Source: a virus. Taken from it: a DNA stretch of 37,322 nucleotides. The notes below the pieces were generated by a model. It was not told the DNA's origin, ran no database searches, and saw nothing but the letters and a program-made list of their open reading frames with translations. The translations under genes were made by a program, and so were the position numbers. Below, one piece after another: positions 2,867 to 29,510 of this stretch. The stretch's first letter is position 1, and each line of letters begins with the position of its first letter. The stretch lies in IMG/VR virus record IMGVR_UViG_3300044960_000372, positions 1 to 37,322 of that record, one strand, 5' to 3'.

Positions 2867-3017
2867 GGCGAATCCGCTCCGCCGCCTGCGCCGATGCAGA
2901 CCGCTCCGGAAGGATGTCCCTCACGCGTCGCTGCACGCTCGGTGCGAGCATATCGAGCAGCCACGGGACCCACTCGACAAGCGCGGCGAGCAGGCGGACC
3001 TTCGCATCATCGGCCAA
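2853..3017 (-). CDS. 54-residue helical protein, TTG start
   Basis: This ORF reads MADDAKVRLLAALVEWVPWL and continues as an amphipathic helix with a basic C-terminus ending IRRGGR. It fills the otherwise empty space between two coupled genes: its start overlaps the upstream stop by 11 bp and its stop overlaps the next GTG. A GGGGG run lies six bases before the TTG. The codon pattern (GC at third positions) looks like genuine coding. The hydrophobic Trp-rich segment suggests membrane contact; function unknown. Confidence 0.45.
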   Translation of the reverse strand: MADDAKVRLLAALVEWVPWLLDMLAPSVQRRVRDILPERSASAQAAERIRRGGR

Positions 3018-3621: not shown

Positions 3622-3636
3622 CGCCAGGGTCAGATC

Positions 3637-3653
3637 ACAAAAGAAGGCGTCAC
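3637..3653 (-). promoter_or_regulatory. Late-arm start-associated element, copy 1
   Basis: The minus strand reads GTGACGCCTTCTTTTGT. It lies one base after the TAG stop (3655-3657) of the tail-fibre gene and 15 bases before the ATG of the lysis-cassette membrane gene, which has no Shine-Dalgarno sequence. Four identical copies sit at other late-gene junctions. In this copy the TGA inside the element is not the stop codon of the upstream gene. Confidence 0.8.
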
Positions 3654-3654
3654 G

Positions 3655-5175
3655 CTACGACCACGCAAAGGTCTTCGTTATGCCGTTCGGGAGCCTCGCT
3701 TTGAGGAGCTCGCCCTCGAACCAGATGTAGATGCCGCCCGAGGGGTTGCCCGATGCGGAGCCCTGGGCCAGGTAGATCACGTTCGTAGATCCGCTCCCGA
3801 TCATCTCGGCGTTCTCGAACAGCGAGAGGCCGCGCGACGTGAGATAGAAGCCATTCGCCCCGCCCGCGGCGGCGTAGATCGCGTTGTTCATCACGTCGAT
3901 GCTCGACGACCCGTCCTGAATCTTGGTGCCGAACGAGCTGAGCTCGATCTTCAGCGCGCCGGCGCGCTGGAGCGTGATGGTGCTCGTCGCGTTGATCGTC
4001 AGCGTGCTGCTCAAGGTCATACTCCCGACAACACCGCGTGCGTGCCAGTCGGTGAGCGTCGAGCCAAATGTCCACGCGTCCCCGGAGCCCCACGTGATTG
4101 CCGCCGCGTCGCTACCGCCGGACGTTCGGCCAACGACAACGAGGGTGCTGACACCACCGTTGTATGGCACGCGCACGTAGCCGGACGATGCTGGCGTTCC
4201 GCCACCGAGCGAGATGAAGCTCCCGCTCCCGCCCATGAATCCGGTGCCGATCGTCCAGTTCGACGCCGCGCCGAGCGCGCCGCTGCTGTTGATCAGCGGG
4301 TTGCCCGTCGAGCCGGGGAGCGCCGTGACGCCGGTGCCGCCCTTGTTGATGGGCAGCGTCCCGGTCGTCATGCTGCTGTTGAGGCTGATCGCGTCCCACG
4401 TGATCGTCCCGCTGCCGTTCGTAGTGAGGACCGTGTTCGCGCTGCCGGCCGCGAGCTTGGTGACGGTGATGCCGGCGTTGTTCGCCACGTGCGCGTTCGT
4501 GATCTGCACGAACGAGTTGCTCGATCCGTTGCTCGTCAACACCGTGTTGGCCGAGCCGGGGGCAAGCTTCGTCACGGCGATCGCGGCGTTGCTCGCCACA
4601 TGCGCGTTCGTGATCTGCACGAACGTACCTCCGCTTCCGCTGCTGACGAGCACCGTGTTCGCGCTACCCCACGCGAGCGCGTTGGGGTCGAACGATCCGC
4701 CCGTGACGGTGGCGAGCCCAGAGCCGGAGACCGACGGGCCTCCGCCGCCGCCGCTCGCGGAGATCGTCACCTCGTTGGTGCCAGTGGAGATCGTGACGTT
4801 CGATCCAGCCTTGAGCGTGCGGAATGGGAGGTTCACGCCGCTCTTGGGGAGAGCGAGTTCCCCCTCGCCCGAGCCGACGTTGCTCGTCGTGTTTGCCTCG
4901 CCCGGAGGCGGCATCGGACCAAGGTTCTTGAGGCCGCCGGCGCCGTCGAGGCCGACGACGTCGTTTGCGTTGCCGGCGGGGATCTCCGGCCCGTCACCGC
5001 CTCCGCTCGCGGAGATCGTGACCTTCGTCGCCTCCGTTGCCGGATCATCCTCGACATCGATCTCGACGCCGTCGCCCTCGATGAGCTCGATGACTGGGCG
5101 CTGCGGGTAGTTGACGCCCAGCTTGCGCAAGATCCAGGGCCCGAGGATAGTGCCGAGCCAACCCCAACGCGCCAT
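3655..5175 (-). CDS. Tail fibre / receptor-binding protein with internal repeats
   Basis: The 506-residue product has a short N-terminal domain with a hydrophobic start, then VTISASGGG modules (about residues 52-62 and 136-146) and a tandem 37-residue repeat at 170-243 plus a partial third copy. A motif common in phage fibres, INKGGTGVTALPG, follows. The remainder is a beta-rich, Ser/Thr/Gly region ending GITKTFAWS. These are hallmarks of a trimeric fibre. There is no C-terminal chaperone signature. It starts three bases after the stop of the glycine-rich adhesin, so the two probably form the host-binding apparatus together. Confidence 0.7.
   Translation of the reverse strand: MARWGWLGTILGPWILRKLGVNYPQRPVIELIEGDGVEIDVEDDPATEATKVTISASGGGDGPEIPAGNANDVVGLDGAGGLKNLGPMPPPGEANTTSNVGSGEGELALPKSGVNLPFRTLKAGSNVTISTGTNEVTISASGGGGGPSVSGSGLATVTGGSFDPNALAWGSANTVLVSSGSGGTFVQITNAHVASNAAIAVTKLAPGSANTVLTSNGSSNSFVQITNAHVANNAGITVTKLAAGSANTVLTTNGSGTITWDAISLNSSMTTGTLPINKGGTGVTALPGSTGNPLINSSGALGAASNWTIGTGFMGGSGSFISLGGGTPASSGYVRVPYNGGVSTLVVVGRTSGGSDAAAITWGSGDAWTFGSTLTDWHARGVVGSMTLSSTLTINATSTITLQRAGALKIELSSFGTKIQDGSSSIDVMNNAIYAAAGGANGFYLTSRGLSLFENAEMIGSGSTNVIYLAQGSASGNPSGGIYIWFEGELLKARLPNGITKTFAWS
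4399..4668 (-). repeat. 111-bp tandem repeats in the tail-fibre gene
   Basis: Residues 170-206 and 207-243 of the fibre repeat the pattern GSANTVL, then FVQITNAHVA, then VTKLA. A third, partial copy starts at residue 244. At DNA level these are 4668-4558, 4557-4447 and 4446-4399. They are long enough to allow repeat-number change by recombination, which would alter fibre shaft length. Confidence 0.8.
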
Positions 5176-5178
5176 CGA

Positions 5179-6225
5179 TCAGCTCCCCGTCTTCCGGTAG
5201 AAGAAAATGCGGCAGCGGCCGCTACCGCCGTTGCCACCCGCGCCGCCGTTCACGCTCCCCGAAGACGACGCGCCTGCGGCGCCACCGCCGCCACCGCCCG
5301 CGCCGCTGCCGGCCACTGCGGACGCACCCGCGCTCCCCGACGTACCGGCGCCCGCGTTGTTCGCGTTGCCTCCGTTGCCTCCGTTGGCGCCGTGGCCGTA
5401 AGGGCCTGCCCCTCCGCCGCCGCCGCCGCCGCCGCCGAGGTACGAGCTCGCGTTGAGCCCCGTGTCACCGCAGACCCCTCCGATGAAGCCCTGCGGCGAA
5501 CCCCCTCCTCGTTCGTTGAGGAGGAATGCATGCAGACCGTTTCCGCTGCGCCCGCGCCCACCGACGTGCGGGGCGTTCGCAACGTGAGCGCAAGCGTCGG
5601 TTGAATGGCTGAACGCCACGAGCGCCCCGCGGACCGGCGGTCCGCCCATCGCGACCGCGTAGTAGTGCAGGCTGCCCCCATTGGCGTTGTCGATGTCGAG
5701 CAACGCCACCTCGTTGAGGTTCGAGCCAGCCGATCCGCCTCCTGCGCCACGAGCGAGCGCGAGCACCGTACCTCCACGCTTGATCACGGTGTCGCCGCCG
5801 TCGCCGCCATTGGCGGGCATGGGACCGCTCGCGGCGCCGACTCCGCCCGCTCCGATCTCGACGGTGAGCGTCTCGCCCGCGACTACCTCGATGATGCCCA
5901 CGGCGAGGACCGCCCCTCCGCCGCCGCCGCCGCCGCACGACAGGCGGTCGGAGCCTGCGGCCGGCCCGCCGCTTCCACCACCACCGCCGCCGCCGCACAT
6001 CTCGTAGAGGGCGTGCGTCGCGCCTGGAGGCACCGTCACCGTGTCGTTCGCCGTGAGCTCGATGGGAGCAGACAGCTTCGGGAGCTGGTCGTACAGGAAC
6101 GCCGTCCGATCGGCGAGCGTCTCGATGCTCGGATTGAACGAAGACGCTTGCGGAGGCGTCTCGTCCGAGACAAGCGGCACCGTCGCCGGCCACGAAGCGG
6201 GATTCCCAGGGACGTTTGCGCTCAT
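5179..6225 (-). CDS. Poly-glycine-rich tail adhesin
   Basis: The 348-residue protein has an N-terminal ~70-residue region (SFNPSIETLADRTAFLYDQL) that probably attaches to the baseplate or fibre. Several Gly runs of 6-9 residues alternate with short variable loops, and the protein ends SGRCRIFFYRKTGS. Alternating poly-Gly strands and loops are the design of T2/S16-type gp38 adhesins, in which packed poly-glycine helices display receptor-binding loops. That similarity is architectural; no sequence homology is claimed. The ATG at 6225 overlaps the preceding stop as ATGA. Confidence 0.6.
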   Translation of the reverse strand: MSANVPGNPASWPATVPLVSDETPPQASSFNPSIETLADRTAFLYDQLPKLSAPIELTANDTVTVPPGATHALYEMCGGGGGGGSGGPAAGSDRLSCGGGGGGGAVLAVGIIEVVAGETLTVEIGAGGVGAASGPMPANGGDGGDTVIKRGGTVLALARGAGGGSAGSNLNEVALLDIDNANGGSLHYYAVAMGGPPVRGALVAFSHSTDACAHVANAPHVGGRGRSGNGLHAFLLNERGGGSPQGFIGGVCGDTGLNASSYLGGGGGGGGGAGPYGHGANGGNGGNANNAGAGTSGSAGASAVAGSGAGGGGGGAAGASSSGSVNGGAGGNGGSGRCRIFFYRKTGS

Positions 6226-7007
6226 AGCTGATCGAACTCCCAATAACGAAAGTTCAGATTCCGACTCGGAATCCGATTCCCGGAGCCGTCGTCCTTGCTC
6301 CAGTAGCCCCACTGCCCATCAGGAAGTCCGACGTTGCTTTCTGGGTCGAGCTCCGAGGGGTCGTCCACCCAGATGACGCAGCGAACGAAGTTGTGCGCGT
6401 TCTTCCACTGCTTGAGCAGTGCAATCGCCTGATCGGACTCCGTCACCGGAACGTTGTGCCCGAGCCCGTATCCAGGATCGAGCGCGGTCCAGTCCGGCAC
6501 GTGTTGGTACGCGGCGCCGTAGACGATCACCCAGATGTCCGTCGGCCGCTCCGTCGCAGCGTTCGGATGCGAGACGCTGTCCCAGTCCCACGGCGCCGTG
6601 AACGTGCGGAGGTTCCCGACCGTGTCGATCTCCGTCCACTGACCGTGCCGATCGACAACACGGACCATCGGGCGCGAGAGCAGGTACTCGTGCAGCGCGC
6701 GAGCGATCGCCTCGTCGGACCCCATGCGCCGGTACCTGTCCAGCCATCCGCGCAGCCGAGCGGCATACTCCTCGTCCGTGTCGGAGAGGCCTCGGACGAT
6801 TCCGCGCGTGGCGCCGATCTCACGCAGCGCCGTCGGCGTTCCGCGCCCAGGCCATGCCGCCTGGATTCCCTCGAGCAGGGCATGAATCAGCGCGTCGCAC
6901 ATGAGCGCGCTCGTCCAGAGGTATTTGGCGGCGAGCTCGAACTTCGGCCGGTAGCTCAGCCACCAAGGCACAATCCGGTCGATGCCGTCGATCAGCCGCC
7001 CAGCCAT
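6222..7007 (-). CDS. Baseplate protein, Mu gp48 / P2 gpI-like
   Basis: This 261-residue protein follows the gp47/J-like gene directly (TGATG overlap), the usual place of the gp48/gpI family. The N-terminal helical half (about 20-110) has LSDTDEEYAARLRGWLDRYR. The C-terminal half is beta/Trp-rich and ends NFRYWEFDQL. It would complete the baseplate wedge and connect fibres. It is somewhat longer than typical members. Assignment rests mainly on gene order. Confidence 0.55.
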   Translation of the reverse strand: MAGRLIDGIDRIVPWWLSYRPKFELAAKYLWTSALMCDALIHALLEGIQAAWPGRGTPTALREIGATRGIVRGLSDTDEEYAARLRGWLDRYRRMGSDEAIARALHEYLLSRPMVRVVDRHGQWTEIDTVGNLRTFTAPWDWDSVSHPNAATERPTDIWVIVYGAAYQHVPDWTALDPGYGLGHNVPVTESDQAIALLKQWKNAHNFVRCVIWVDDPSELDPESNVGLPDGQWGYWSKDDGSGNRIPSRNLNFRYWEFDQL

Positions 7008-8149
7008 CACGCCGCCCGCACCTGAACGGAGCCCGCCCACGTGGCGACCGAGTCGGGCGCAAGGGGAAGATCCGACTCGTCGTCAAGATCGACGTCGAAC
7101 ACCGATGGGTGCACCCTGCACGCCGCCTTCACCCAGTCGGCGTAGAGCGCGCCGAGCGCGTGCGGCGGCTTCCGGATTCCGCCGATGGGATACGTCGAGA
7201 TCCCTTCGGCGATCGCCTGGAACGCCTGCGCTCGCACCCCATCGAGGTCGAGGCCGTTCGTGCGACGCACCCAGATCGTCACCGTGCGATCGAACGGGAC
7301 GACGTTGGCCGCAGCGACCTCGACCTTGATGCCGGACGGTCGCGCCATCGCCTCGATGGCCTCCTCTGCTGCGGCAATGTCGTTCGCGATCGGAGCTCCC
7401 GACGGACTCGCGAGTGTGACGCTCACGATCGCGTCCCACGAGCCCTCGGGGACGTGTACACGGTTGATCGCCGTCGGCGTGCCGTCGAGCCGCCGAGCCT
7501 GGCGAACGGCCCACTCGTACGCGCCACGAGGACCGAGATCGCTAATGCTGGCGAGCTTCGCTCGACACGCGAAGCGTAGCTCCTCGTCGGTCTCCTCGTT
7601 GAGCCCAACGACGGCCTCCTCGTTCGTGACCTCGACACCGAGAAGAGACGTCTCGATCGAGTCGATGTCACCGGCGGCTGCCCACGAGTCGCGCCCGACC
7701 TCGACCGCGACAACCTCGAGCTTCTTCGTCTGGAACGGAGCGAGGTCGAGCGGCTGCGAGTTGAAGTACCGCTTTCCAGTGCGGGACGCGTAGAAGCGCA
7801 CGCTGCCGGGCGGATAGTCGCCCGGCAGGAACGAGCCGCCTCCGGTGTTCGTGAGCGTCACGAATCCGCTCGCCGGCTGCGCGGCTCGCCTCTCGACACC
7901 GAAGACGTACCAAGCCAACAGCGTCAGCCACGGACCTTCGGCGTGGTCGAGGAAGCCGCAGCGGATCGCGTTGTACATGATCTCCGTCAGGCCGGAGAAC
8001 GTCATCGCCTGCGCGCGCTGCAGCACGCGCAGCACGCCGCCCTTGCGGAACTTCGTCACGTCGACGCCGAGCCGAGTCAGGACGGAGTCGAACTTCGCCA
8101 TGTACTCGTCCGGCGTGACGCGCTGAAGGAGAGCGTCGAGAGGGATCAT
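7007..8149 (-). CDS. Baseplate J-like protein (Mu gp47)
   Basis: The 380-residue product fits the baseplate J family. It has an N-terminal MTFSGLTEIMYNAIRCGFLD helix, then a beta-rich SGFVTLTNTGG segment, then a conserved ETDEELRFACRAKLA stretch followed by GPRGAYEWAVRQA, and a C-terminal SVTLASPSGAP domain. It forms the wedge ring that triggers sheath contraction. The start at 8149 shares ATGA with the upstream gp46-like gene, and the stop overlaps the next start. Confidence 0.85.
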   Translation of the reverse strand: MIPLDALLQRVTPDEYMAKFDSVLTRLGVDVTKFRKGGVLRVLQRAQAMTFSGLTEIMYNAIRCGFLDHAEGPWLTLLAWYVFGVERRAAQPASGFVTLTNTGGGSFLPGDYPPGSVRFYASRTGKRYFNSQPLDLAPFQTKKLEVVAVEVGRDSWAAAGDIDSIETSLLGVEVTNEEAVVGLNEETDEELRFACRAKLASISDLGPRGAYEWAVRQARRLDGTPTAINRVHVPEGSWDAIVSVTLASPSGAPIANDIAAAEEAIEAMARPSGIKVEVAAANVVPFDRTVTIWVRRTNGLDLDGVRAQAFQAIAEGISTYPIGGIRKPPHALGALYADWVKAACRVHPSVFDVDLDDESDLPLAPDSVATWAGSVQVRAA

Positions 8150-8529
8150 CGGACGATCCCTCCTTCGACCGTCCCATCCGCGCTTACGTCGTATCCGAGA
8201 TGCAGAAGACCGTCGGTGGTCGTGATCTCGATGTCGACGTGAGCGGTCACGCCTTCGTTTCCGACGCCTCTGCGCTCGACGCGAGCGACACACGTCAAGG
8301 CGCGCGGGTCCTTCAGGATGTCCGCCTCGATGAGGCGGCCGATCCTGATCGGATCGTCGCTACCGGAGAGCCTCGACAGGAGTCCCACGCCGCGGTCCTC
8401 GTCGTCCGGGTTGCTCCCGTAGTCCTCGAGGAGGCGGTGGTAGACGTCCTGCGCGAACAGATCGAGCTCGTCGTTCGTCTCGGACGCGAATTCGTCGAGG
8501 TCGTCCAGGCAGACGAGGTCCACGACCAT
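8146..8529 (-). CDS. Baseplate wedge protein, Mu gp46 / GPW-gp25-like
   Basis: The 127-residue protein has GVGLLSRLSGSDDPIRIGRL, then ILKDPRALTCVARVE, and ends with a beta hairpin DIEITTTDGLLHLGYDV. This is the pattern of the gp25/W-like lysozyme-fold wedge protein. A TTG twelve bases further upstream, inside the repeat element, also opens this frame, but the ATG at 8529 gives the normal family N-terminus. There is no Shine-Dalgarno sequence before the ATG; repeat element 2 ends eight bases upstream. Confidence 0.75.
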   Translation of the reverse strand: MVVDLVCLDDLDEFASETNDELDLFAQDVYHRLLEDYGSNPDDEDRGVGLLSRLSGSDDPIRIGRLIEADILKDPRALTCVARVERRGVGNEGVTAHVDIEITTTDGLLHLGYDVSADGTVEGGIVR

Positions 8530-8537
8530 CCGCCCGA

Positions 8538-8554
8538 ACAAAAGAAGGCGTCAC
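8538..8554 (-). promoter_or_regulatory. Late-arm start-associated element, copy 2
   Basis: The minus strand reads GTGACGCCTTCTTTTGT. Its internal TGA (8551-8553) is the stop codon of the hub/spike gene. The next ATG (8529) follows eight bases after the element and has no Shine-Dalgarno sequence. Confidence 0.85.
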
Positions 8555-9705
8555 GCTGAGCGCGTCTTCATCGCGGCGAGCTGGGCTTGGATCTGCGCCA
8601 CGTCGGCCTCGATCCCTGGATACGGCGCCGTCGCCGCACCATTGTGCGCCGCGTTCACCTTCCGGATGAGATCGAGCACGGCCCCGATCACGTCCGCGTT
8701 CGCGGTCGGCTTCGCCGCCTCGCCGCCGAGTTTGAGCACCGTGAAGTCCCACGTGGCCTCGAGCGGACTGGCGCCGTCGAAACCGAGGACGACAGGCGTC
8801 CGCCCGACGAAGCCGACGAGAACCTTCGCCCCTGGCTTCGCACGACACGTGAAGCCGGGCACACCGGGCCAGTGCAGAACCGGCGTCGCGTCAGGGACAG
8901 GACCTCGGACCTCGCTTTGCAGGAGGTACCCTCCGTCCGCCGTCTGACCCACGACCGTGTAGACGTGGAGGGTGAGCAGCTCCGGACGGATAGCGCTGAT
9001 CGCGAGCGCCTGGATGGCGTGCGCGAGACGCGGCCCCTGCGTCTCCGTTGCCGTCGTCTCGCCCATCCAGAGCGACGCCGATGCGCCCTCCTCGCTCCAC
9101 GTCTGCGTGACCTCGCGCACGCGCATCGCGCCGCCGGGAAGGCGAGGATCCGCAATGACGGTCCCCGGCATGATCGGAGCCGAGCTCGCCGCCCGCGCGA
9201 TGCGAGAGAGCGGATCCCACTCCGACAGGTGAAAGTCCGTCCCCGGGGCGCTCGGCGGACGCGGCCCCACCGTCGTGACTCCCTCCGGGCTCACCCACCA
9301 TCCCGCGCGTCCGAGCACCTGCGAAGCCGGGCCGGCAACGCGCGTGTAGTGCTCTCCGATCCGTTCCGGCGCGACGACGGTTGCCGCGATCCCGAGCTCC
9401 GCCGCCGTCGCCGAGATCACGACCGACGACGTCAGCCCCGCGGGGTTCGAGAAGTGCCTTTTCGGCAGCGACCTCGACCACTCGAGCGCGCCGACGACGC
9501 GGCACCGTGCGCGCGTCCCGAAGGCGCCCGACGACGACGAGTCCACCGTCCCGACGAACGGCACGCCGCCGACCACGCACGTGACCTTGCCCGTCGGCGG
9601 CGGCGCGCCCGTCGGAAGATCGTGGTCGACCTCGAGCACCCACGATCCGGACTCGGGAACGTGCAACGTGCACGACGTGATGAGATGCGGCCCGATCGTG
9701 TTCAT
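8551..9705 (-). CDS. Baseplate hub/spike protein
   Basis: This 384-residue product lies between the tail-tube initiator region and the gp46-like wedge gene, where Mu has gp44 (hub) and gp45 (spike). The first ~260 residues have the mixed alpha/beta make-up of a hub. The segment around 285-340 (PGVPGFTCRAKPGAKVLVGF, then VVLGFDG) reads as an OB-fold typical of spike proteins. The C-terminus is a helical AAHNGAATAPYP-type tail. It may be a hub-spike fusion; the domain boundary is an inference. The stop codon is part of repeat element 2. Confidence 0.6.
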   Translation of the reverse strand: MNTIGPHLITSCTLHVPESGSWVLEVDHDLPTGAPPPTGKVTCVVGGVPFVGTVDSSSSGAFGTRARCRVVGALEWSRSLPKRHFSNPAGLTSSVVISATAAELGIAATVVAPERIGEHYTRVAGPASQVLGRAGWWVSPEGVTTVGPRPPSAPGTDFHLSEWDPLSRIARAASSAPIMPGTVIADPRLPGGAMRVREVTQTWSEEGASASLWMGETTATETQGPRLAHAIQALAISAIRPELLTLHVYTVVGQTADGGYLLQSEVRGPVPDATPVLHWPGVPGFTCRAKPGAKVLVGFVGRTPVVLGFDGASPLEATWDFTVLKLGGEAAKPTANADVIGAVLDLIRKVNAAHNGAATAPYPGIEADVAQIQAQLAAMKTRSA

Positions 9706-10268
9706 GTTCCACCGCTCGCCACCGCCCTAAGACGGGCGGCCGCCTCCTGCAGCCGGATGTCCTGCTCCGTCATCGGACGCGCCGGCGGCTGCTTCTCGAC
9801 TGCAGGCACGACAGGCTCCGTCTTCTTCGGCACGAACGGAGCCGGTGCGCGGTACTGCAGGAACGAGAGACGCGTCTGCCACCGCCCCGGAGCGATGAGG
9901 CTCCAACCCTCGATCTCTGTAACCTGCACGTTTTGGATGCGGAACGGCGGTTTGATCAGCACGGGATGGTAGACGCCGAGCGCGGGCGGCTTCACCCCAA
10001 CTGGCGCCGTCAGGAACACGTTCGCGAACTGATCCCAGAGCGACTCCTTCGACTCGTCCCAGAACTCGAACGTGGCATCGAACGCCGCGAGCCCCTCGCC
10101 CGTGTACACGCAGAACGCGCCCTGTAGCCCGAAGCCAGGCTTGACGTCCCAATTCCGCTTGAGTTTCGGAGGTCCGAGCGTCGTCTTGTCGGCAGATACC
10201 GCCGCAATCGCGCTGATGGGGTTACCGATGCTGACGACGAGGTAATCGATCTCGACGGAGAACGGCAT
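9702..10268 (-). CDS. Tail/baseplate protein downstream of the tape measure
   Basis: The 188-residue protein starts MPFSVEIDYLVVSIGNPISA. Its middle is beta-rich and Trp-rich (FEFWDESKESLWDQF), and it has a Pro-rich linker (about 140-165) and a short C-terminal helix. It lies between tape measure and hub, the position of Mu gpN or of LysM-type baseplate adaptors, but no LysM motif is seen. The ATG at 10268 overlaps the tape-measure stop as TGATG; a GTG one codon upstream is also possible. Confidence 0.5.
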   Translation of the reverse strand: MPFSVEIDYLVVSIGNPISAIAAVSADKTTLGPPKLKRNWDVKPGFGLQGAFCVYTGEGLAAFDATFEFWDESKESLWDQFANVFLTAPVGVKPPALGVYHPVLIKPPFRIQNVQVTEIEGWSLIAPGRWQTRLSFLQYRAPAPFVPKKTEPVVPAVEKQPPARPMTEQDIRLQEAAARLRAVASGGT

Positions 10269-12824: not shown

Positions 12825-12832
12825 GGCTCGCC

Positions 12833-13303
12833 TCAGAAGTTGTGGATCGACATGCCGTCGAGATCGCGATGGCGCATCGGCTGCAGGGTGACCTCGACTC
12901 GGTTGCCGTCGGGCCCTTGGCTGAACTCCTTCCCGACCTCCGAAACCTTGCACTCCCAGACGTCACCGACCGGCGGTGCGCCCGTGATCGGGTTCCCCGT
13001 CGCCATGACGGTGAACATGAACTTCGCGTGTCCGTAGCCACGTCCGAGCGACTTCGCGGTCAGGTAGGCCTTCACCCTCTGCCACTCGTACGCGTACATG
13101 GTCACGGTGATCGGGTCGTACTCGACATGCCCCGTAGCGAGGTCGATCGGCTCACGGCCCGTCCCATACTGCGGTGACTGCTCGATCTTCTCCTTCGTCC
13201 CGGTGACCTCGAGGACGCCCTCGACCACGATGGTGTCGAAGGAGAACTTGCACTCATACCAGTTGTAGACGTGGCCGCCGATGATCGGATTAGGAGGGAG
13301 CAT
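12833..13303 (-). CDS. Tail tube protein
   Basis: The 156-residue protein directly follows the sheath gene and precedes the chaperone, the place of the contractile-tail tube. It is predicted beta-rich (FSFDTIVVEGVLEVTG, then PITVTMYAYEWQRVKAYL, then NRVEVTLQPMRH), consistent with the tube fold. Hexameric rings of it would line the tail for DNA passage. The ATG at 13303 has GAGG six bases upstream. Identity rests on order, size and composition. Confidence 0.7.
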   Translation of the reverse strand: MLPPNPIIGGHVYNWYECKFSFDTIVVEGVLEVTGTKEKIEQSPQYGTGREPIDLATGHVEYDPITVTMYAYEWQRVKAYLTAKSLGRGYGHAKFMFTVMATGNPITGAPPVGDVWECKVSEVGKEFSQGPDGNRVEVTLQPMRHRDLDGMSIHNF

Positions 13304-13311
13304 CGATCACC

Positions 13312-14775
13312 TCAGATATTGAAGCTCCGGACGAAGCGGCTCGTCACGGCAATCCCCTTGATGTAGACGAGGCTCGAAATCTCGATGGTCGCCGTCACGA
13401 TGGCGCCGTCGTTGGAGCCGACGTCGTCGACGCGCGACAGAGTCAGCCGCACGTCGTCCACCTCGCCACGCAGCACGGACTTGAGGTCGAGCGTGCCGCG
13501 TTGCTCGATCTCGGCCACGTCGGCCTCGAGCAGATACACCTCTCCGTTCGGGCCGGGCTTCGGGTCCTTGCGCTTTCGCGAGCTCAACTCCTCAGTGAGG
13601 AAATCCCACGATCGCTCCTCGGCGACGCACATGCATCGCTCCTGTTGATCGAACACGTAGTCCGAACCGATTGGCGAGAACACGCGCGGGTTGCCGATGA
13701 AGGCGCCAGCACGGCGCGGGAACGTACGCAGCGTCACGTATCCGAGATCGTCGAGCCCCGGCGTCGCGTCCTCGTCCCAGCAGACGGGCGTTCCGTCGTC
13801 GTCGACGATCGCGAATCCGTCGACCGGCCCGTCTGCTACGTAAGCGGCGTCCGTGCCGATGCTGATCTTGGCGATGCGGCCAGCGAGCGCGAGCGACGTC
13901 GGCCGCCACATGCTGATCCCACGGATCGGCGAAGCGACGTACCCACCGTCCGCGCAGACGTCGACGCGCGTGCCCGTCCTCGCCGCGTTGCTGATGACCT
14001 CGAGCTCGTCGATGTAGTCCTGTGCCGACTCGTCGTCGGGCTGGTACGGACGCACGTTCAGGATCGCGCGCTTGCTGAGCCCGCGAGCCATGAATCCGTT
14101 CAGCGCGGTGCGGACGCCATTGATGATCGTCGCGTCCGCCTCGACGGACCCGATCAGGATGGCCTCGTACTGCAGCCCGGTGTTCTTGAGCGCCTCGAGG
14201 CACGGGAGCAGATCCGGCAGCGACGCCTTCGGACCCGTCGTCGTGAAGGCGACCGACTGACCGTCGGCGATGTCTCCTGCGCCGAGCTCGATCGTGATGC
14301 CCGTGTCCGGGATGACGATCTCGTCGTCCGTGCCGAGCGCCCGATCTGCGGAGAACGTCTTGCCGCCGTCGAGGCTCACGGCGTAGCGGATGCCGGCCGC
14401 ACCGACCGTTCCGCCCTTCGGGAATCGGATGACCACGCGGAATCGGTCGATCGGCTTCGTCGAGCCGGCGGTGATCGTCGCCGCGCCAGCCTGCGGCGCA
14501 CCGGTCACGTCGATCGTGCTGTACGCCCCGTCCGTCGATGCGTCGCACTTGACGAGCACGACGGGCTTGCGACCGACCTCGAGCATGTATGCTCCGAGCT
14601 CGGAGAGCTCGCCGTGACCAAACGAGGCGAGCGCCTGCGCCTTCGTCGTCGCGATCGTCGGCTTGGCCGGGACTCCGGCCGCCGATGCCGCGATGATCGC
14701 GAACGTTCCTATGGGCGAGGCCCGTCCAGCGCCCGTGTTGCCGTCGGCGCGCTGATACGTCAGGCGGGGCAGCAT
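13312..14775 (-). CDS. Contractile tail sheath protein (DUF2586-like)
   Basis: The 487-residue protein starts MLPRLTYQRADGNTGAGRAS, a start resembling DUF2586 sheath-like proteins. It has a central TKPIDRFRVVIRFPKGG domain, a YEAILIGSVEADATIINGVR core and a C-terminal domain rich in beta strands (RLTLSRVDD, then ATIEISSLVYIKGI), which in sheaths forms the interlocking handshake. It makes this phage a myovirus. The ATG at 14775 has no Shine-Dalgarno sequence, and repeat element 3 ends 14 bases upstream. Confidence 0.8.
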   Translation of the reverse strand: MLPRLTYQRADGNTGAGRASPIGTFAIIAASAAGVPAKPTIATTKAQALASFGHGELSELGAYMLEVGRKPVVLVKCDASTDGAYSTIDVTGAPQAGAATITAGSTKPIDRFRVVIRFPKGGTVGAAGIRYAVSLDGGKTFSADRALGTDDEIVIPDTGITIELGAGDIADGQSVAFTTTGPKASLPDLLPCLEALKNTGLQYEAILIGSVEADATIINGVRTALNGFMARGLSKRAILNVRPYQPDDESAQDYIDELEVISNAARTGTRVDVCADGGYVASPIRGISMWRPTSLALAGRIAKISIGTDAAYVADGPVDGFAIVDDDGTPVCWDEDATPGLDDLGYVTLRTFPRRAGAFIGNPRVFSPIGSDYVFDQQERCMCVAEERSWDFLTEELSSRKRKDPKPGPNGEVYLLEADVAEIEQRGTLDLKSVLRGEVDDVRLTLSRVDDVGSNDGAIVTATIEISSLVYIKGIAVTSRFVRSFNI

Positions 14776-14789
14776 GCCTATCTGGCGGC

Positions 14790-14806
14790 ACAAAAGAAGG
14801 CGTCAC
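14790..14806 (-). promoter_or_regulatory. Late-arm start-associated element, copy 3
   Basis: The minus strand reads GTGACGCCTTCTTTTGT. Its TGA (14803-14805) is the stop of the tail-terminator-like gene, and the sheath ATG follows 14 bases later without a Shine-Dalgarno sequence. Confidence 0.85.
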
Positions 14807-15336
14807 GGTTCGCGCACGATGTTCGGCGAGAGCGGGCCTGTGAGGTCCCACGGGACATCGATCACGTGCGTGCGCAGCGTGAACGTCAGTTTCAGCTCAC
14901 GGCCAAGCTGCGTGAGCGTCTCCGGACGCGTCCACGTCGTATCGCCGAACGTGTGATGCCCGTCGCTCGCGTTCGTGATCGCGCGCATCGCCCACTGCAT
15001 GAGCCGGAACGTCGCGCTGACTTGATCCTCCTCGGAGGTCTTGTCCGTCGCCCAGACGTAGCAGGCGAGATCGATCTCCCAACACGCCAACGGGCGCCAT
15101 GCTTGCGTCTCGGTGACGCGCACGCCTGGACCCTTCGGCGGAAGGATCCTTCCTCCGCGGCCACCCTCATCGGACGGCGCGACCACGATGCGGTTTCCGC
15201 CCGCTCGCGTGCCCTGCTTCGGGCGCTGCAGCCAGCCGGCGAGGAACTCGGCGTCGACCTGATGCGCCTCTAGGTAGGCGCGCATGCGGTCGACGAACAC
15301 CGAGAAACCAGACTCAAGAGTGATCTCCGACGGCAT
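14803..15336 (-). CDS. Tail terminator / completion-like protein
   Basis: The 177-residue protein starts MPSEITLESGFSVFVDRMRA. It has an N-terminal helix, mixed alpha/beta centre (WRPLACWEIDLACYVWATD) and a C-terminal strand LKLTFTLRTHVIDVPW. It lies between the gpG-like neck gene and the sheath, where tail terminators are found. The ATG at 15336 has GGAGG five bases upstream, and the stop codon is part of repeat element 3. Assignment is by position and general make-up only. Confidence 0.5.
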   Translation of the reverse strand: MPSEITLESGFSVFVDRMRAYLEAHQVDAEFLAGWLQRPKQGTRAGGNRIVVAPSDEGGRGGRILPPKGPGVRVTETQAWRPLACWEIDLACYVWATDKTSEEDQVSATFRLMQWAMRAITNASDGHHTFGDTTWTRPETLTQLGRELKLTFTLRTHVIDVPWDLTGPLSPNIVREP

Positions 15337-15337
15337 G

Positions 15338-15745
15338 TCACCCTCCGAGCTTGCGTTGGCGCACGCGCTCGATCGCGCGCTCGATCGCCTCGATCGCTTC
15401 CTTCGGCTCCGGGTCGCCCTGCACGAACGGGAGGATCTGCCGGCGCGGGCGGTTCTCACGATGGCCCATCATCCGATTCTGAAAGAACGCGCCGTTCGAC
15501 GGCGACGCGAGCTTGACGACGAAGCTCGCGCCCGACACGGTGACGGATAGCGCGCTCGAGACGTCTGCGTAGGGCGTGCCGTCCTTGCGCGGCGCGAAGG
15601 GCTTGCCCTCGATGTCGCGGCCGGCGGCGGTCTTCTCTCGCAGCGCTCTCAGCGCGTCGTTGGCCGCCTCCTTCGCGATCTCCTCGGGCGCCGTGCCGAG
15701 AGCCTCGATCTGCTCGATGAGCTCGCGCAGGTCCGCCACGATCAT
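15338..15745 (-). CDS. Virion morphogenesis / tail completion protein (Mu gpG-like)
   Basis: This 135-residue protein has an N-terminal helix (DLRELIEQIEALG), then DIEGKPFAPRKDGTPYAD, FFQNRMMGHRENRPRRQILP and a C-terminal helix AIEAIERAIERVRQRK. The RDGTP-like turn and the basic RPRRQILPF strand are typical of the gpG/HK97 gp10-like head-tail joining family. It starts in an ATGA overlap with the gp36-like gene. It is expected to act in neck assembly. Confidence 0.6.
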   Translation of the reverse strand: MIVADLRELIEQIEALGTAPEEIAKEAANDALRALREKTAAGRDIEGKPFAPRKDGTPYADVSSALSVTVSGASFVVKLASPSNGAFFQNRMMGHRENRPRRQILPFVQGDPEPKEAIEAIERAIERVRQRKLGG

Positions 15746-16203
15746 CGCCTCCCGCGCATCGTCCGGTGCCAGTCGATCGGCGAGCGGAACGAGAACGCGC
15801 GAGCCCTCCGCCTCGACACGCCGTCCTCGTCCTGCTTGCCAGGCTCCGGCTCGCGAAGAGGAAGCTCGACGAGTCCGTCCCGCGCGTTCGCTGCCTTCGA
15901 GAGCCACTCGATCGCCTCGTCCCGTGCCTTCACGATCTCGCCGTCTTGCTGGCTCGACGGATCGAAGCCGATGAAGATACGGATCTGGTACGAGAGGATC
16001 TGAGCGGCGTGGAACTTTACCGCCTCGGGCACCGGATCCTTGAAGGGCGTGGCGTACCGCTTGAACAGGTACGAGTCGATCAGGCGAGACACCGCCTCCG
16101 ACATCGCCTCGAAGCGCCCAGGGTGCTTGTCGACGAAGTCGTCGAGTTCCGCGTCTGGGATCGAGCCCATGACGCGAAAGTATGCGATGTCGACATACGC
16201 CAT
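15742..16203 (-). CDS. Neck protein, Mu gp36-like (DUF1320)
   Basis: The 153-residue protein begins MAYVDIAYFRVMGSIPDAEL and has an all-helical core with SRLIDSYLFKRYATPF and VKFHAAQILSYQIRIF. These match the DUF1320/gp36 head-completion pattern. The ATG at 16203 has GAGGG five bases upstream. It is the first gene after the capsid gene and its hairpin. It should bind the portal-side connector. Confidence 0.7.
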   Translation of the reverse strand: MAYVDIAYFRVMGSIPDAELDDFVDKHPGRFEAMSEAVSRLIDSYLFKRYATPFKDPVPEAVKFHAAQILSYQIRIFIGFDPSSQQDGEIVKARDEAIEWLSKAANARDGLVELPLREPEPGKQDEDGVSRRRARAFSFRSPIDWHRTMRGRR

Positions 16204-16221
16204 CTGCGCCCTCTAATGACA

Positions 16222-16255
16222 ACGGCCCGCGCCGGTCGGACCGAACGCGGGCCGT
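16222..16255 (-). terminator. Hairpin downstream of the major capsid gene
   Basis: A perfect 10-bp inverted repeat, ACGGCCCGCG and CGCGGGCCGT, encloses a 14-base loop that can itself pair. It starts 20 bases after the capsid stop in the direction of transcription. Only a weak T-rich tract (TTGTCATTAG) follows on the minus strand. It is better read as an attenuator or mRNA-stabilising hairpin that keeps capsid expression above that of neck genes than as a full terminator. Confidence 0.5.
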
Positions 16256-16274
16256 CGCGGTCAGATCGCGCCCG

Positions 16275-17213
16275 TCACTGGCAGATGCAGCGCTGCGCGA
16301 GGTACGGGTGACCGAGATACGCGGTGAGGTCGCCGGTCACGAGGTACTCGAGCTCCTGCATGCGAGCCAGCTCGGGCACCGTGAGCCCGTCGAAGTTCGT
16401 CATCGTCATCGGGATAAGCGTCGAGATCCCGAACGGACGCGCGAACGCGCCGCCTCCCTCGAGCTCGCCGACGACGATCCAGACGTCCTTGTTGCCCACC
16501 TGCTCGAGCCCCGGCACCTGCACCGGGGTGATGTCGTACGAGCGCCGGATGATGTTCTCGGTCGTGCCGTTCGAGGTCCCGAAGAAGGCCGCATTCGTCG
16601 CCACGTGCGCCTTGTACTTGAGGGACGGGGGATGAAGCAGCCACTTTGCGCGAAGCGCGCGAGGCGTGCCGTCGGGCATCCTTCGGTCTTCGATCTGCGA
16701 GGCCGCCCAAGCGAGATTCTCCGGCGTCAGATCACGGCCCGCCTCCGTATTGGAGTAGACGCCCTGCGTGTTGTCCCTGTAGTTGTTGAAATGCCCTGTG
16801 TGCCAGAACGGGAGTCCGTCGTACGCCTTCGCGCTCTGGTCGTTGATGAGCTGCAGCAGCAACTTCTGCGGCAGCAGCGCGGCGGAGGCACCGAGACCAG
16901 CCGCAGCATCGGTCTTGATCTGCAGCGCGTTCTGCGTTTTGAAGTCGCGGTCTCGCACGACGAAACCACCGCCGGCCTGCTCGTGCTTGATCGCCATCCC
17001 GTGGGTCTTGAGGTCCGAGTACTCGATGCCCGGACCGACCCGGATCCGGATGTCCTCAACCAGGAACTCCCGGAGGTCGGCGACTCCGGCCCCCTCCACC
17101 TCGTTGGCGACGATGCTCGCCCAGCGGTTCTTGAGGGCGTTGTCGTAGCTGGCCTGATAGACGCTCTGCAGCGTCTTGTTCAGGGCCATCACGTGTTGCA
17201 TCGGGGTGAACAT
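16275..17213 (-). CDS. Major capsid protein (Mu T-like, HK97 fold expected)
   Basis: The 312-residue protein resembles the Mu major head subunit T family. It has an N-terminal helix ALNKTLQSVYQASYDNAL, the RVGPGIEYSDLKTHGMAIKH loop region, the conserved GLPFWHTGHFNNY and PRALRAKWLLHPPSL stretches and a C-terminal LTAYLGHPYLAQRC segment. The ATG at 17213 has GGAG about nine bases upstream. It follows protease, scaffold-like and decoration-like genes as in Mu. The mature N-terminus may be unprocessed because the scaffold is encoded separately. Confidence 0.85.
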   Translation of the reverse strand: MFTPMQHVMALNKTLQSVYQASYDNALKNRWASIVANEVEGAGVADLREFLVEDIRIRVGPGIEYSDLKTHGMAIKHEQAGGGFVVRDRDFKTQNALQIKTDAAAGLGASAALLPQKLLLQLINDQSAKAYDGLPFWHTGHFNNYRDNTQGVYSNTEAGRDLTPENLAWAASQIEDRRMPDGTPRALRAKWLLHPPSLKYKAHVATNAAFFGTSNGTTENIIRRSYDITPVQVPGLEQVGNKDVWIVVGELEGGGAFARPFGISTLIPMTMTNFDGLTVPELARMQELEYLVTGDLTAYLGHPYLAQRCICQ

Positions 17214-17277
17214 CTTTCGTCTCTCCGTCTCCGTGGAGGGTGAGGTTCGGACTCCGACTCTTCGTCAGAGATCAGAG

Positions 17278-17673
17278 TCAGAGGGGGAGGATCACGCGGA
17301 CGCGACCGTCGGCCTCGACGCCCGAGATCGTTCCCGCAAGCACCGCGTCCTCGCTCGTGAGCGACACGGTCTTGGGGTCCGCGCCCACGTAGCAGGGCTT
17401 CGTGACGTCCCTCAGACCGATCCCGGAGCCGGCGAAGAGGTACTCCTTCTGCCCGCGCGAGAACTCGATCGTGACCCACACGTCGCCGTCGTTCCCGGCC
17501 GTGTTGTCGGCGTCCTCAATCGCGACGCCGAAGACCGTCCCCGAAACGCCGGGACCGGGCGCGGGGGCCGGCTCCGCGCAGCCGCTTGAGTTGATTACGA
17601 CCGTGTCACCGGCGGCGATCCTCTCGCCGCCGGCAACCGGAACGATGTCCTTGTCCGTTCGGATGAAGCCCAT
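17278..17673 (-). CDS. Head decoration / capsid stabilising protein candidate
   Basis: The 131-residue, nearly all-beta protein has GERIAAGDTVVINSSG and ends ADGRVRVILPL. Small beta-rich proteins encoded immediately before the capsid often cement the head. GGAG lies five bases before the ATG at 17673. A 64-bp gap separates it from the capsid gene; it holds a weak GACTCT/AGAGTC inverted repeat. The function is inferred from position and composition. Confidence 0.55.
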   Translation of the reverse strand: MGFIRTDKDIVPVAGGERIAAGDTVVINSSGCAEPAPAPGPGVSGTVFGVAIEDADNTAGNDGDVWVTIEFSRGQKEYLFAGSGIGLRDVTKPCYVGADPKTVSLTSEDAVLAGTISGVEADGRVRVILPL

Positions 17674-17683
17674 CGTGCTCCCC

Positions 17684-18139
17684 TCACTTGCTCAGGTTGC
17701 GGAGCGTGTTCCGAGCGGCCGCCTCGATCGCCATGATCGTGGCGTCCTTCGGAGCCGGCGGATCCACGCGCGGGATGACCGTCGGCCTCGACGCCCGCTT
17801 CGCGAGGCCGATCGACGAAGCCTTCTCGAGCTTCGCCACTCGCTCGGTGAGCGACTTGATCGTCGCGAGCGCGGACGCGAGCTCCTTCGACGGCTCCTTC
17901 TCCTCCTCGCTCCCGCCGGACTCCGACGACGTCGTCGGCTCGCCCTCCGACGTGTTCGCCTTCTCCTCGGACGACTCCGAGGACTCCGACGCCTGCGTCT
18001 CCTGCTCCTGCGCTTGCTGCGCGTCGAGCAGCGAATTGAAGTACGCGGACAGCTTGTCGAGCGCCGCCGCCTTCGCCTCGTCGGAGGCGGACGCGTCGAC
18101 GAGGGTCGCAAGCGCCGCGATCAGCTCCTTCGGATCCAT
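17684..18139 (-). CDS. Scaffold-like protein
   Basis: This 151-residue protein is strongly acidic. Ser/Glu-rich low complexity at about 48-85 (SESSESSEEK, GGSEEEKEPS) is followed by a coiled coil (ELASALATIKSLTERVAKLE) and a basic Pro-rich C-terminal arm ending NTLRNLSK. Acidic coiled-coil plus basic tail is the usual design of capsid scaffolds, and it lies between protease and capsid. In Mu the scaffold is translated from an internal start in the protease gene; here it is a separate gene. The ATG at 18139 follows repeat element 4 and has no clear Shine-Dalgarno sequence. Confidence 0.6.
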   Translation of the reverse strand: MDPKELIAALATLVDASASDEAKAAALDKLSAYFNSLLDAQQAQEQETQASESSESSEEKANTSEGEPTTSSESGGSEEEKEPSKELASALATIKSLTERVAKLEKASSIGLAKRASRPTVIPRVDPPAPKDATIMAIEAAARNTLRNLSK

Positions 18140-18154
18140 CACCTGGATCGGCGC

Positions 18155-18171
18155 ACAAAAGAAGGCGTCAC
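18155..18171 (-). promoter_or_regulatory. Late-arm start-associated element, copy 4
   Basis: The minus strand reads GTGACGCCTTCTTTTGT. Its TGA (18168-18170) is the stop of the protease gene, and the scaffold-like ATG follows 15 bases later with only a weak AGG upstream. Confidence 0.85.
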
Positions 18172-18743
18172 GATCTCGAGCGAAGCTGCAGCACGCGAAG
18201 CTTCGCCATCGAGAGAGAAAGCCGTCCGCCCAACGGCGACACGGACATCGCGGACGCAAGCGCGGGGATGCCGTGAGTCCTCGGGTTGTTCGTCAGCGCG
18301 CAGTTCACGTACGAGATGACTTCACGCGTTTTCTCCTCGACGTAGAAACACGGCGAGAAGTACCGCCACTCCGGCGGGTCCGCCTCGAGCCCGGCGCGCG
18401 CCTCGTCCGTCCACGTGCACGACACGGCCCAGAGCTCCGGCTTGCCGTTCTCGTCCTCGCGCACCTCGAGGACGTGCCAACCAGCAGCCTTCGACGCTTC
18501 GGGCGGCGCGTCCGGCATCATCGACCGGTGGTCGAAGTCGAAGCTGTAGATCCGACCGCGCTCGTTCTGCTCCTTGATGAGGAGCTCCGCCGACCGCTCC
18601 GAGAACACGAACGGTTCCCCACCGTCGCACGCGTTCGGCCCGTACGCCCAGATCCGGAACGCCGTCGGCGCCTTCCCCGGACCGGGGCGCTCGACAAGCG
18701 GTCGCGCGGCGGCGAGCTCGGAGATCGCAAGAATCGACCTCAA
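18168..18743 (-). CDS. Prohead protease (Mu I-like)
   Basis: The 191-residue protein matches the Mu-like I protein pattern: SFDFDHRSMMPD, then AAGWHVLEVRE, ELWAVSCTWTDEARA, EWRYFSPCFYVEE and the C-terminal CALTNNPRTHG. The His in DFDHRS and the Ser in YFSP are the likely catalytic pair of this serine protease. It would mature the head. The start is a TTG at 18743 whose TTGA overlaps the portal stop; GGAGG lies six bases before it. The stop codon is part of repeat element 4. Confidence 0.85.
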   Translation of the reverse strand: MRSILAISELAAARPLVERPGPGKAPTAFRIWAYGPNACDGGEPFVFSERSAELLIKEQNERGRIYSFDFDHRSMMPDAPPEASKAAGWHVLEVREDENGKPELWAVSCTWTDEARAGLEADPPEWRYFSPCFYVEEKTREVISYVNCALTNNPRTHGIPALASAMSVSPLGGRLSLSMAKLRVLQLRSRS

Positions 18744-20026
18744 GACACACCTCCGGTGATCGGCACACCGAACTTACGAGCCATCGCGGCGACGTCGACT
18801 CGCTCGGGGGCGCCGCTCGTCACGAGCGCGTCGAGCCACTTCTTCACCGCGTCGCCGCCGACGTTCACGGCGTTCGCCTCCGACGCGAGATCCTTCGGCG
18901 GCGTCGCGTCCCATCGCACGCGCGGTCGGTGGAACCAGCCATCGAACGAAAATCGTCGCTGCGCCCAGACAGGGATCACCTGCTCGTTCAGCGCGGACGC
19001 CATCGTCTCCGCGTCGCCACGGATGAGGTCGTGCTTGACCTTGGCGAAGACGCTATTGTTCGCGAAACCGGTGCCCGGCTCGGTGGTTCCACGCTGGCCG
19101 GAGATCGCGAATATGACGTCCTCCTTCGATGCCTCGAGCTGGTCCTTCATCGAGCTGGGCGTCGTCTGCGACGGGTGCTCGAGATCGAACTGCCATCCCT
19201 CGTTCAAGAGGATGGCCGGGAACGGGCCGAAATGGTTGATCGCGTCGAACGTCTCGCGGACCTCGTCCTCGTTCGCGCCGTTCGGGACCGTGAGCTTCTT
19301 GATCGGGAACGCGAGGGAGTTGTTCCAGGCGCCCAAGTTGAGGAACGCCTGCCTACGTGTGACGTAGGCGAACGCGAGAGCGCGCCAAAGGCCGTACCTC
19401 CACGGGTAATCCGACCCATGCGGGAACGCGAGCAGCCATCGGCCATCGCCCGGCGTCACCGGCTCCTGCTCGCCGTACGCCGTGCGGACGTACCACTGAT
19501 TTTCGCTGAATCGGTACGTGAGGAACTCGGGGTTCCTTCGAACGAGACGAAGCCGTCCGTCCTCGTCCTCGAGGATCTCCCCGAACATGATGTTCAGGAG
19601 CCCGCCGTCACGAGCGATCAGGCTAAGTTCCGACGCCGGGCATAGCGTGTCGAACTCGCGCGAGAGCGCGATCGCGTATTCCTCCGCCGGACGCATTGAC
19701 CCTCGGTACGGTCGACCGTCTGGCGCCTCTTCCACGCTCGCCTCGAAGTACCGAGGCAGGTGGAGCATGCCATCGAAGCGCGTCGACAGCTCTCCCGCGA
19801 TCAGGCCGTCGCCGATCAGCGTGTCGGCGATGCGGCCGATCATCTGCATGTTGCCCGTCTCGGCGACGGCCAGCGCGGCGTCGATGTCCGGGATGTCCCA
19901 GTCGACGTACGTGGGCATCCACGGCGTGAGGTTCAACGCGCGCTTGCCGCGTCCGCCCTTCTTGACCTCGCGCGGACCCTGCGAACCTCGCACGAAGTTC
20001 AGGAATCGACGGACGACATTGGGCAT
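18740..20026 (-). CDS. Portal protein (Mu gp29-like, DUF935)
   Basis: The 428-residue protein has the gp29 features: IADTLIGDGLIAGELSTRF near residue 70, then GRWLLAFPHGSDYPWRYGLW, ISGQRGTTEPGTGFANNSVF and a C-terminal wing/clip region. It forms the dodecameric DNA gate at the head vertex. The ATG at 20026 lies 22 bases after repeat element 5 without a Shine-Dalgarno sequence. A second ATG at 20036 is out of frame. No gpF (gp30) homologue follows, unlike in Mu. Confidence 0.85.
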   Translation of the reverse strand: MPNVVRRFLNFVRGSQGPREVKKGGRGKRALNLTPWMPTYVDWDIPDIDAALAVAETGNMQMIGRIADTLIGDGLIAGELSTRFDGMLHLPRYFEASVEEAPDGRPYRGSMRPAEEYAIALSREFDTLCPASELSLIARDGGLLNIMFGEILEDEDGRLRLVRRNPEFLTYRFSENQWYVRTAYGEQEPVTPGDGRWLLAFPHGSDYPWRYGLWRALAFAYVTRRQAFLNLGAWNNSLAFPIKKLTVPNGANEDEVRETFDAINHFGPFPAILLNEGWQFDLEHPSQTTPSSMKDQLEASKEDVIFAISGQRGTTEPGTGFANNSVFAKVKHDLIRGDAETMASALNEQVIPVWAQRRFSFDGWFHRPRVRWDATPPKDLASEANAVNVGGDAVKKWLDALVTSGAPERVDVAAMARKFGVPITGGVS

Positions 20027-20048
20027 GAGGCTTCATGCGTCCGGTGTT

Positions 20049-20065
20049 ACAAAAGAAGGCGTCAC
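20049..20065 (-). promoter_or_regulatory. Late-arm start-associated element, copy 5
   Basis: The minus strand reads GTGACGCCTTCTTTTGT. Its TGA (20062-20064) is the stop of the large terminase gene, and the portal ATG follows 22 bases later. Confidence 0.85.
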
Positions 20066-26122: not shown

Positions 26123-26163
26123 GGGCCGATAGCTCAGTTGGTAGAGCAGCGGACTTTTAATCC
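26123..26163 (+). other. 5' half of tRNA-Lys(UUU): integration core
   Basis: GGGCCGA (acceptor 5' strand), TA, a complete D arm (GCTC and GAGC), the anticodon-stem 5' strand GCGGA and loop CTTTTAA with anticodon TTT are all present. The match ends after TCC. No T arm or 3' acceptor strand follows. It is therefore not a functional tRNA but the stretch shared with a host tRNA-Lys gene. Most tRNA-targeting phages carry the 3' half; carrying the 5' half is less usual. Confidence 0.8.
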
Positions 26164-29472: not shown

Positions 29473-29510
29473 GGTCGTTAGACTCGCACAAAACGCGGAA
29501 GTCGCACGCG

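Follow-up and report, generated by a model that had tools for sequence, protein, structure and literature searches.

The 37,322-nucleotide virus record IMGVR_UViG_3300044960_000372, the whole of which is referred to here as the window, is a complete circular (or terminally redundant) genome with a GC content of 68%, since its two ends (1-127 and 37196-37322) are an identical 127 nt. Its late genes lie on the minus strand in a Mu-like myovirus order, running from TerL, portal, Mu-I protease, scaffold, decoration, Mu gpT capsid (PF10124), neck genes, sheath and tube through tape measure, gpV-like, gp46-like, baseplate J and fibre to a holin-like gene. A 17-bp element, GTGACGCCTTCTTTTGT, recurs letter for letter at five junctions between these late genes, always on the minus (late) strand. 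The five copies had been reported, with exact coordinates, in an earlier reading of the sequence (the original prediction); they are listed here together with a tentative further element before a gene that lacks a Shine-Dalgarno (SD) site.

20049..20065, minus strand: 17-mer copy between the TerL and portal genes; its TGA is the TerL stop, and the portal ATG (20026) is 22 nt on.
18155..18171, minus strand: 17-mer copy between the protease I and scaffold-like genes; its TGA is the protease stop, and the next ATG (18139) is 15 nt on.
14790..14806, minus strand: 17-mer copy between the tail terminator and sheath genes; its TGA is the tail terminator stop, and the next ATG (14775) is 14 nt on.
8538..8554, minus strand: 17-mer copy between the gpV-like and gp46-like genes; its TGA is the gpV-like stop, and the next start is an ATG (8529, 8 nt on) or a GTG (8523, 14 nt on).
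3637..3653, minus strand: 17-mer copy between the tail fibre and holin-like genes; the fibre TAG stop ends one base before it, and the next ATG (3621) is 15 nt on.
29488..29507, minus strand: tentative diverged sixth element, GTGCGACTTCCGCGTTTTGT, 15 nt before the ATG (29472) of the lone SD-less gene 28987-29472 (minus strand).

In shuffled sequence, 0.08 matches to the 17-mer are expected, and none of 100 shuffles reached five. The window holds no copies with one to three mismatches; the next-best ungapped matches have four or five and lie away from gene starts. The flanks of the five copies are unrelated, with identity breaking off sharply at the borders of the 17-mer, which is pyrimidine-rich, asymmetric and without an SD core. 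The candidate sixth element is a gapped match (p ~0.01 for that start, before correction for ~40 starts), and the early region is otherwise without a near copy. As originally described, the upstream stop codon is the TGA at motif positions 2-4 in four of the five copies (TerL, protease I, tail terminator, gpV-like) and ends one base before the fifth, and the measured distances to the next start fall within the 8-22 nt given there. The GTG at 8523 aligns with the start of the homologous gene in the nearest relative (L129, below), and the gp46-like gene probably starts at this codon, 14 nt from the motif.

The gene names of the original prediction held where protein families could be matched (portal PF06074, Mu-I protease PF10123 with the scaffold-like gene directly after it, sheath DUF2586 PF10758, and baseplate J PF04865). 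The gp46-like wedge gene owes its name to synteny alone, and the "lysis" gene (3007-3621), which looks like a membrane protein and is called holin-like here, had no family match. That the elements mark where assembly modules begin holds only approximately.

The element occurs at its starts in place of an SD site. At four of the motif starts (portal, scaffold, sheath and holin-like), SD pairing energies are −3.2 to +0.6 kcal/mol, whereas those at fourteen other late starts of the window are −5.1 to −12.7 kcal/mol (Mann-Whitney U test of motif starts against other late starts, p = 0.002), bearing out the earlier remark that many neighbouring late genes do have SD sites. For the gp46-like start, the values are −2.2 (ATG) and −5.8 (GTG) kcal/mol, the latter from a GGGCGG run. 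The original statement on the lack of SD sites holds, the GTG being the exception in pairing energy. The gp36 gene, which follows a hairpin after the capsid gene, has an SD site and no motif, and other junctions of this phage are ATGA overlaps. The same contrast in SD pairing between element starts and other late starts was found in L129 (p 0.004), and the sheath orthologues of ~30 more distant kin have ordinary SD sites at their starts; portal starts were too often mis-called to be used in this comparison among kin. Elements and SD sites are thus alternatives, both in the window phage and in L129.

The kin of the window phage are prophages of Polyangiales (myxobacteria). Its named relatives, Myxococcus phage Mx4, Meiothermus MMP7 and Thermus Riverbug, are distant, with portal identities of ~26 to 30%, and the closer ones comprise prophages, in genomes that belong to the same order as a Polyangiaceae assembly, along with many IMG/VR contigs. 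For almost every structural gene, the nearest is L129, a prophage in genome G121 that is 100% identical to an IMG/VR contig and whose proteins share 55% (protease I), 52% (J), 45% (sheath) and 39% (portal) identity with those of the window. The exact 17-mer, which the original prediction proposed to seek in related phages, is in no relative examined. IMG/VR has five single matches, a count near the estimated chance level; the one inspected (L007) lies antisense within a coding region and is a chance match. Among 184 Polyangiales genomes, there was one exact copy, which fell at the end of a contig within a host gene resembling DnaK. No comparable exact repeats were found in the distant kin (Mx4, the Meiothermus and Thermus phages, ~90 sheath relatives and 39 protease/J relatives), and single-protein scans with portal and TerL returned no close kin.

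A related element is nevertheless present in L129, where a degenerate 14-nt pyrimidine motif is shared by six SD-poor late starts, namely those of portal, protease I, gp36, sheath, the gp46-like gene and a fibre-region gene (CTGACCCTCTTGTG, TTAGGACCCTTATG, TTAGTTTTCTTGTG, CTAGTCCTTTATTC, ATAACCCTCCATTG and ATAGCCCTTCAGTG). All six end 13 or 14 nt upstream of the ATG. Their joint motif score (log-likelihood ratio, 98) exceeds that of all 60 shuffles (mean, 76; largest, 86.6). The motif was first seen by eye, and an automated repeat was then run over 218 loci, 15 of which were usable because they had four or more SD-less intergenic starts; a significant shared motif at such starts came up in the window (z 19.6) and in L129 (z 6.5) alone, the next value being 1.6. 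The L129 motif is not a general host start signal in the part of G121 that was scanned: over ~420 kb of the assembly, the five best matches to it, and all but one of the first seven, fell among the late genes of the phage. Related phages that keep the junctions but lack the element, named in the original prediction as what would refute it, do exist among the distant kin, where SD sites are found instead; the nearest kin has the related element, at portal, sheath and gp46-like junctions in common with the window. This homologous, drifted element and the near-fixed spacing uphold the view that the element takes the place of an SD site.

The L129 portal element, with the TerL stop inside it, aligns best by eye to the 17-mer (TGAC-CC-TCTTGTG; p 0.034, uncorrected). 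The window copies may therefore derive from that element, an origin that would explain the stop codon inside the motif. As L129 tolerates much variation, the perfect identity of the five window copies may reflect recent homogenisation or spread; a stricter requirement in the window phage is also possible. In L192, in the G121 prophage, a possible further element of the L129 type (TAGACCTTTTATTG; 6421-6465, plus strand) lies 17 nt before the ATG of the gene at 6452, the first rightward gene past a divergent gap.

The comparison with L129 bears on the suggestion that the 17-mer links modules in recombination, or is a short mobile repeat that was copied from one module border to another, and plays no part in expression. 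Five perfect copies with unrelated flanks would fit such a repeat, and deletions do arise through repeats in phages of Clusters O and A (PMC4351075, PMC5712189). However, the same kind of element persists at fixed spacing in L129 although the sequences differ, elements and SD sites stand in for one another, and no other kin carries such a repeat. A pure linker is therefore disfavoured, and we regard it as highly improbable.

At the element starts, the spacer between the element and the start codon pairs with the first codons of the gene itself, and the stem sequences differ from gene to gene. In the window, the following structures were found.

3608..3638, minus strand: hairpin at the holin-like start, GTGATCTGACCC-TGGCGAT-GGGTCAGATCGC, −21.3 kcal/mol.
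18133..18149, minus strand: hairpin at the scaffold start, GATCC-AGGTGAT-GGATC, −4.7 to −6.8 kcal/mol, depending on the loop.
20023..20038, minus strand: inverted repeat across the portal start, GCATGA-AGCC-TCATGC; the local fold beats spacer shuffles (p 0.034).
8517..8527, minus strand: weak inverted repeat at the gp46-like start, GGTC-GTG-GACC, with the GTG start as the loop.
14768..14778, minus strand: weak inverted repeat at the sheath start, GGCA-TGC-TGCC.

Pairing between spacer and codons is clear at the holin-like (GATCTGACCC-TGGCGAT-GGGTCAGATC) and scaffold starts of the window. It is equally clear in L129 at the sheath (TTCGGGATC-GAT-GATCCCGAA), gp46-like (GGTCC-GTTGAT-GGACC), protease (CGGGG-TATG-CCCCG) and portal (CGCC-GGTAT-GGCG) starts. 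A stem of −4 kcal/mol or lower, closing a loop that has the start codon at its 3' edge, was present at 7 of 11 element starts, compared with 6% of 3,116 control starts. Local folding energies from −13 to +13 averaged −9.6 kcal/mol at the 11 element starts and −4.6 kcal/mol at 2,859 control starts (p 3.9e-6), stronger folding was also seen with two other window sizes, and seven of the 11 element starts beat shuffles of their own spacer (p ≤ 0.044). Since the stem sequences differ while the pairing is kept, structure, rather than DNA sequence, seems to be maintained at the element starts, which points to RNA; a DNA site for a protein would not be expected to behave in this way. Of the roles offered originally, a translational one fits best, although simple U-rich recruitment of S1 to an unstructured start is weakened, the element starts being more structured than average.

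The strongest rival is a phage-specific late promoter, used by the host polymerase with some further sigma factor or activator and yielding very short, SD-less leaders headed by the hairpins. It agrees with copies that all point one way, precede blocks of genes and keep a nearly constant distance to starts without SD sites; a contiguous and fully conserved 17-mer is promoter-like, and the tentative copies before genes without a co-directional upstream neighbour (29472 in the window and 6452 in L192) are in keeping with it as well. However, a pairing spacer must be transcribed, which argues against a transcription start at the ATG. There are no −10/−35-like companion elements (sigma-70 −35/−10 hexamers at a spacing of 16 to 18 nt were absent from 3000-22900), the genes tested included no recognisable RNA polymerase or sigma factor, and no early gene, nor any other gene outside the virion genes, was found to be common to the window and L129. 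Further, gp36, where a new promoter would help most, has an SD site in the window and no motif, and the L129 copies are degenerate and yet tightly spaced, a better fit to ribosome geometry. We therefore consider a promoter rather unlikely, though a rival to be taken seriously.

A further rival is termination-reinitiation, in which the ribosome would stop at the motif TGA, be held by the pyrimidine tract, unfold the hairpin and restart downstream. Consistent with this scheme, the upstream stop lies inside or one base before every window copy and inside the L129 portal and protease elements too, and unfolding of a start hairpin by the ribosome is a recognised coupling model (PMC12548453). The distances speak against it: stop and start are 21 to 35 nt apart at the five window junctions and 23 to 39 nt in L129, where the gp36 pair is over 100 nt apart and one element lies ~80 nt past the stop, while ~20 nt nearly abolishes coupling in Escherichia coli and H. 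volcanii (PMC10666635). By the threshold of that study, termination-reinitiation junctions are overlaps or very short gaps, and none of the five junctions is of this kind. Moreover, ATGA overlaps already serve coupling at other junctions of the window phage, three L129 junctions have the stop trinucleotide within the element but not in frame, structure after stop codons tends to insulate (PMC7518266), and two candidate elements (29507-29488 in the window and 6421 in L192) precede genes without an upstream co-directional neighbour. The simple stop-restart role first proposed is thus weakened, and reinitiation appears improbable to us.

The window phage is temperate, as judged by its integrase (PF00589, 26350-27396) and a probable tRNA-like attP, and the elements might be sites at which a phage regulator keeps late genes silent in the lysogen, either repressor sites of the Cluster A stoperator type or translational operators. 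An asymmetric site repeated in one orientation in short intergenic regions of a temperate phage is what stoperators look like (PMC5712189). However, no stoperators are known that take over from SD sites or sit at a set distance from start codons. Apart from one doubtful copy, the sites here belong to late genes, no such site was recognised at an early promoter, and the window and L129 have no repressor in common; we find this explanation quite improbable.

Three other candidates were set aside. An intrinsic terminator does not fit, as the U-rich motif precedes the hairpin and none of 15 terminator-like matches lies at a motif. Pairing with 16S rRNA away from the anti-SD and a NusB-type boxA were both judged by eye against known sequences, and the L129 variants lose the bases needed for either. 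No Rfam 15 covariance model matched the window.

Because of the near-fixed start distance, the absence of SD sites and a hairpin that is transcribed, we favour an RNA element acting at initiation, and we lean, with belief and doubt about evenly balanced, to the 17-mer being what stays constant in a translation-start element that works at the RNA level and independently of SD sites. The late mRNA would carry a pyrimidine-rich tag ~14 to 15 nt upstream of an SD-less start codon, and a local hairpin would hold that codon, its 5' arm pairing with the opening codons of the same gene. The tag would probably recruit the initiating ribosome, via S1 or another RNA-binding factor, to a start that is otherwise closed, and one shared signal would thereby initiate a set of virion and lysis genes. 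Recognition in the transcribed RNA, raised or gated initiation and the identity of the binder are what we infer here. As S1 binds pyrimidine-rich RNA, it is a reasonable guess for the reader of the tag.

Several points weigh against this RNA-level start element. SD-independent starts are usually less structured (PMC3121790), and the hairpins here would need a mechanism to open them. A promoter with its transcript beginning just past the motif and a hairpin at the 5' end would give the same anatomy. The portal spacing of 22 nt departs from that at the other motif starts, and start codons are predictions of a simple home-made gene caller. The inverted repeats at the gp46-like and sheath starts of the window, and the portal and fibre start hairpins of L129, are each not significant alone. 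Both the hairpin test and the L129 motif test were devised after inspection, although the automated search agrees with the latter. Among early-region proteins, none common to the window and L129 was recognised, i.e., there is no shared candidate for the binding factor. The device is known from two phages, the window and one relative.

How starts are chosen without SD sites in bacteria is an open question, and here a sequence tag replaces the SD site at defined genes. A genome-wide search across many prokaryotes found no conserved motif for SD-less starts (PMC3121790). It is possible, though we hold this more tentatively, that the element is an undescribed SD-independent bacterial start signal, made of a pyrimidine tag, a fixed distance and a gene-specific hairpin, that is read by the host ribosome or a dedicated factor in one myxobacterial phage lineage. 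If so, the late genes with the tag would be set apart from the SD-driven rest in this lineage, and a function would be at hand for the start-associated repeats that several phage groups carry unexplained. SD-bearing orthologues in sister phages are natural controls, making the question testable with a few reporters.

Other features of these genomes were noted in passing. The start and strong SD site of baseplate J lie inside a 10-bp hairpin (GGAGGGATCGTCCGATGATCCCTCT, −14.4 kcal/mol; 8125-8170, minus strand) at an ATGA overlap with the gp46-like gene, which looks like a classical translational-coupling hairpin. Between capsid and gp36, a GC-rich hairpin followed by TTGTCATTAG (16204-16274, minus strand), also present in L129 and other kin, probably serves as an attenuator or a processing site behind the gene for the major capsid protein. 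In L129, a very strong hairpin (ACCCGCTTTGGCAGCTCCCATGCCAAAGCGGGT, −24 kcal/mol) lies at ~19778 (minus strand), around the point where the gene preceding TerL is predicted to begin. Adjoining the integrase gene of the window is an exact 5' half of a tRNA-Lys(UUU)-like sequence (GGGCCGATAGCTCAGTTGGTAGAGCAGCGGACTTTTAATCC; 26123-26163, plus strand), and attP probably lies within this tRNA gene. Segments at 937-1019 and 33011-33093 are 90% identical in two otherwise different early genes (GDVVRVKGSALVE..RYR), which suggests a recent duplication or a shared domain. GC-rich units (GGGGCCCCTCGGAGCGGGCGCC) form a tandem array at 1082-1249 inside gene 467-1276, and a near-perfect 15-nt tandem array encodes a pentapeptide-repeat protein (34173-34760, plus strand) next to a DUF1643 gene (33203-34117).

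Among described systems, the nearest in kind to the 17-mer element are the start-associated sequences (SAS) and extended SAS (ESAS) of Cluster K mycobacteriophages and Cluster EF Microbacterium phages (PMC3203893, PMC7302621). Like the 17-mer, SAS are short, asymmetric and repeated in one orientation close upstream of starts, sometimes with the upstream stop inside the repeat; they are absent from other phages and from the host, and their function is suspected to be translational. The 17-mer does not match the SAS consensus, GGGATAGGAGCCC. SAS have AGGAG, the SD core, 3 to 7 nt from the start and are limited to nonstructural genes, whereas the 17-mer is without AGGAG or GGAG, stands 14 to 22 nt away (8 nt for the gp46 ATG) and serves virion-assembly and lysis genes with a hairpin at the start codon. 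The motifs of Microbacterium Clusters EC, EG and EI are likewise conserved repeats in short intergenic regions, 14 to 30 nt upstream, with five copies in EI; however, those of EG are inverted repeats, that of EI is 30 bp long, no SD replacement is reported for them, and EI phages encode a sigma factor (PMC7302621), none being recognised in the window. Cluster A stoperators are similarly asymmetric, oriented with transcription and mostly intergenic, but they are ~24 DNA repressor sites without a fixed relation to starts or SD sites (PMC5712189). The Cluster O repeats share with the 17-mer a length of 17 bp, near-invariance and some intergenic copies, but they are palindromic, unoriented, present in more than 30 copies with one-third inside genes, and not tied to starts (PMC4351075). 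SD-independent starts also lack SD sites but are unstructured (PMC3121790), whereas the element starts combine a sequence tag with above-average structure. Finally, ribosome termination structures have in common with these junctions a stable structure after the stop codon (PMC7518266), to which the phage element adds a conserved tag.

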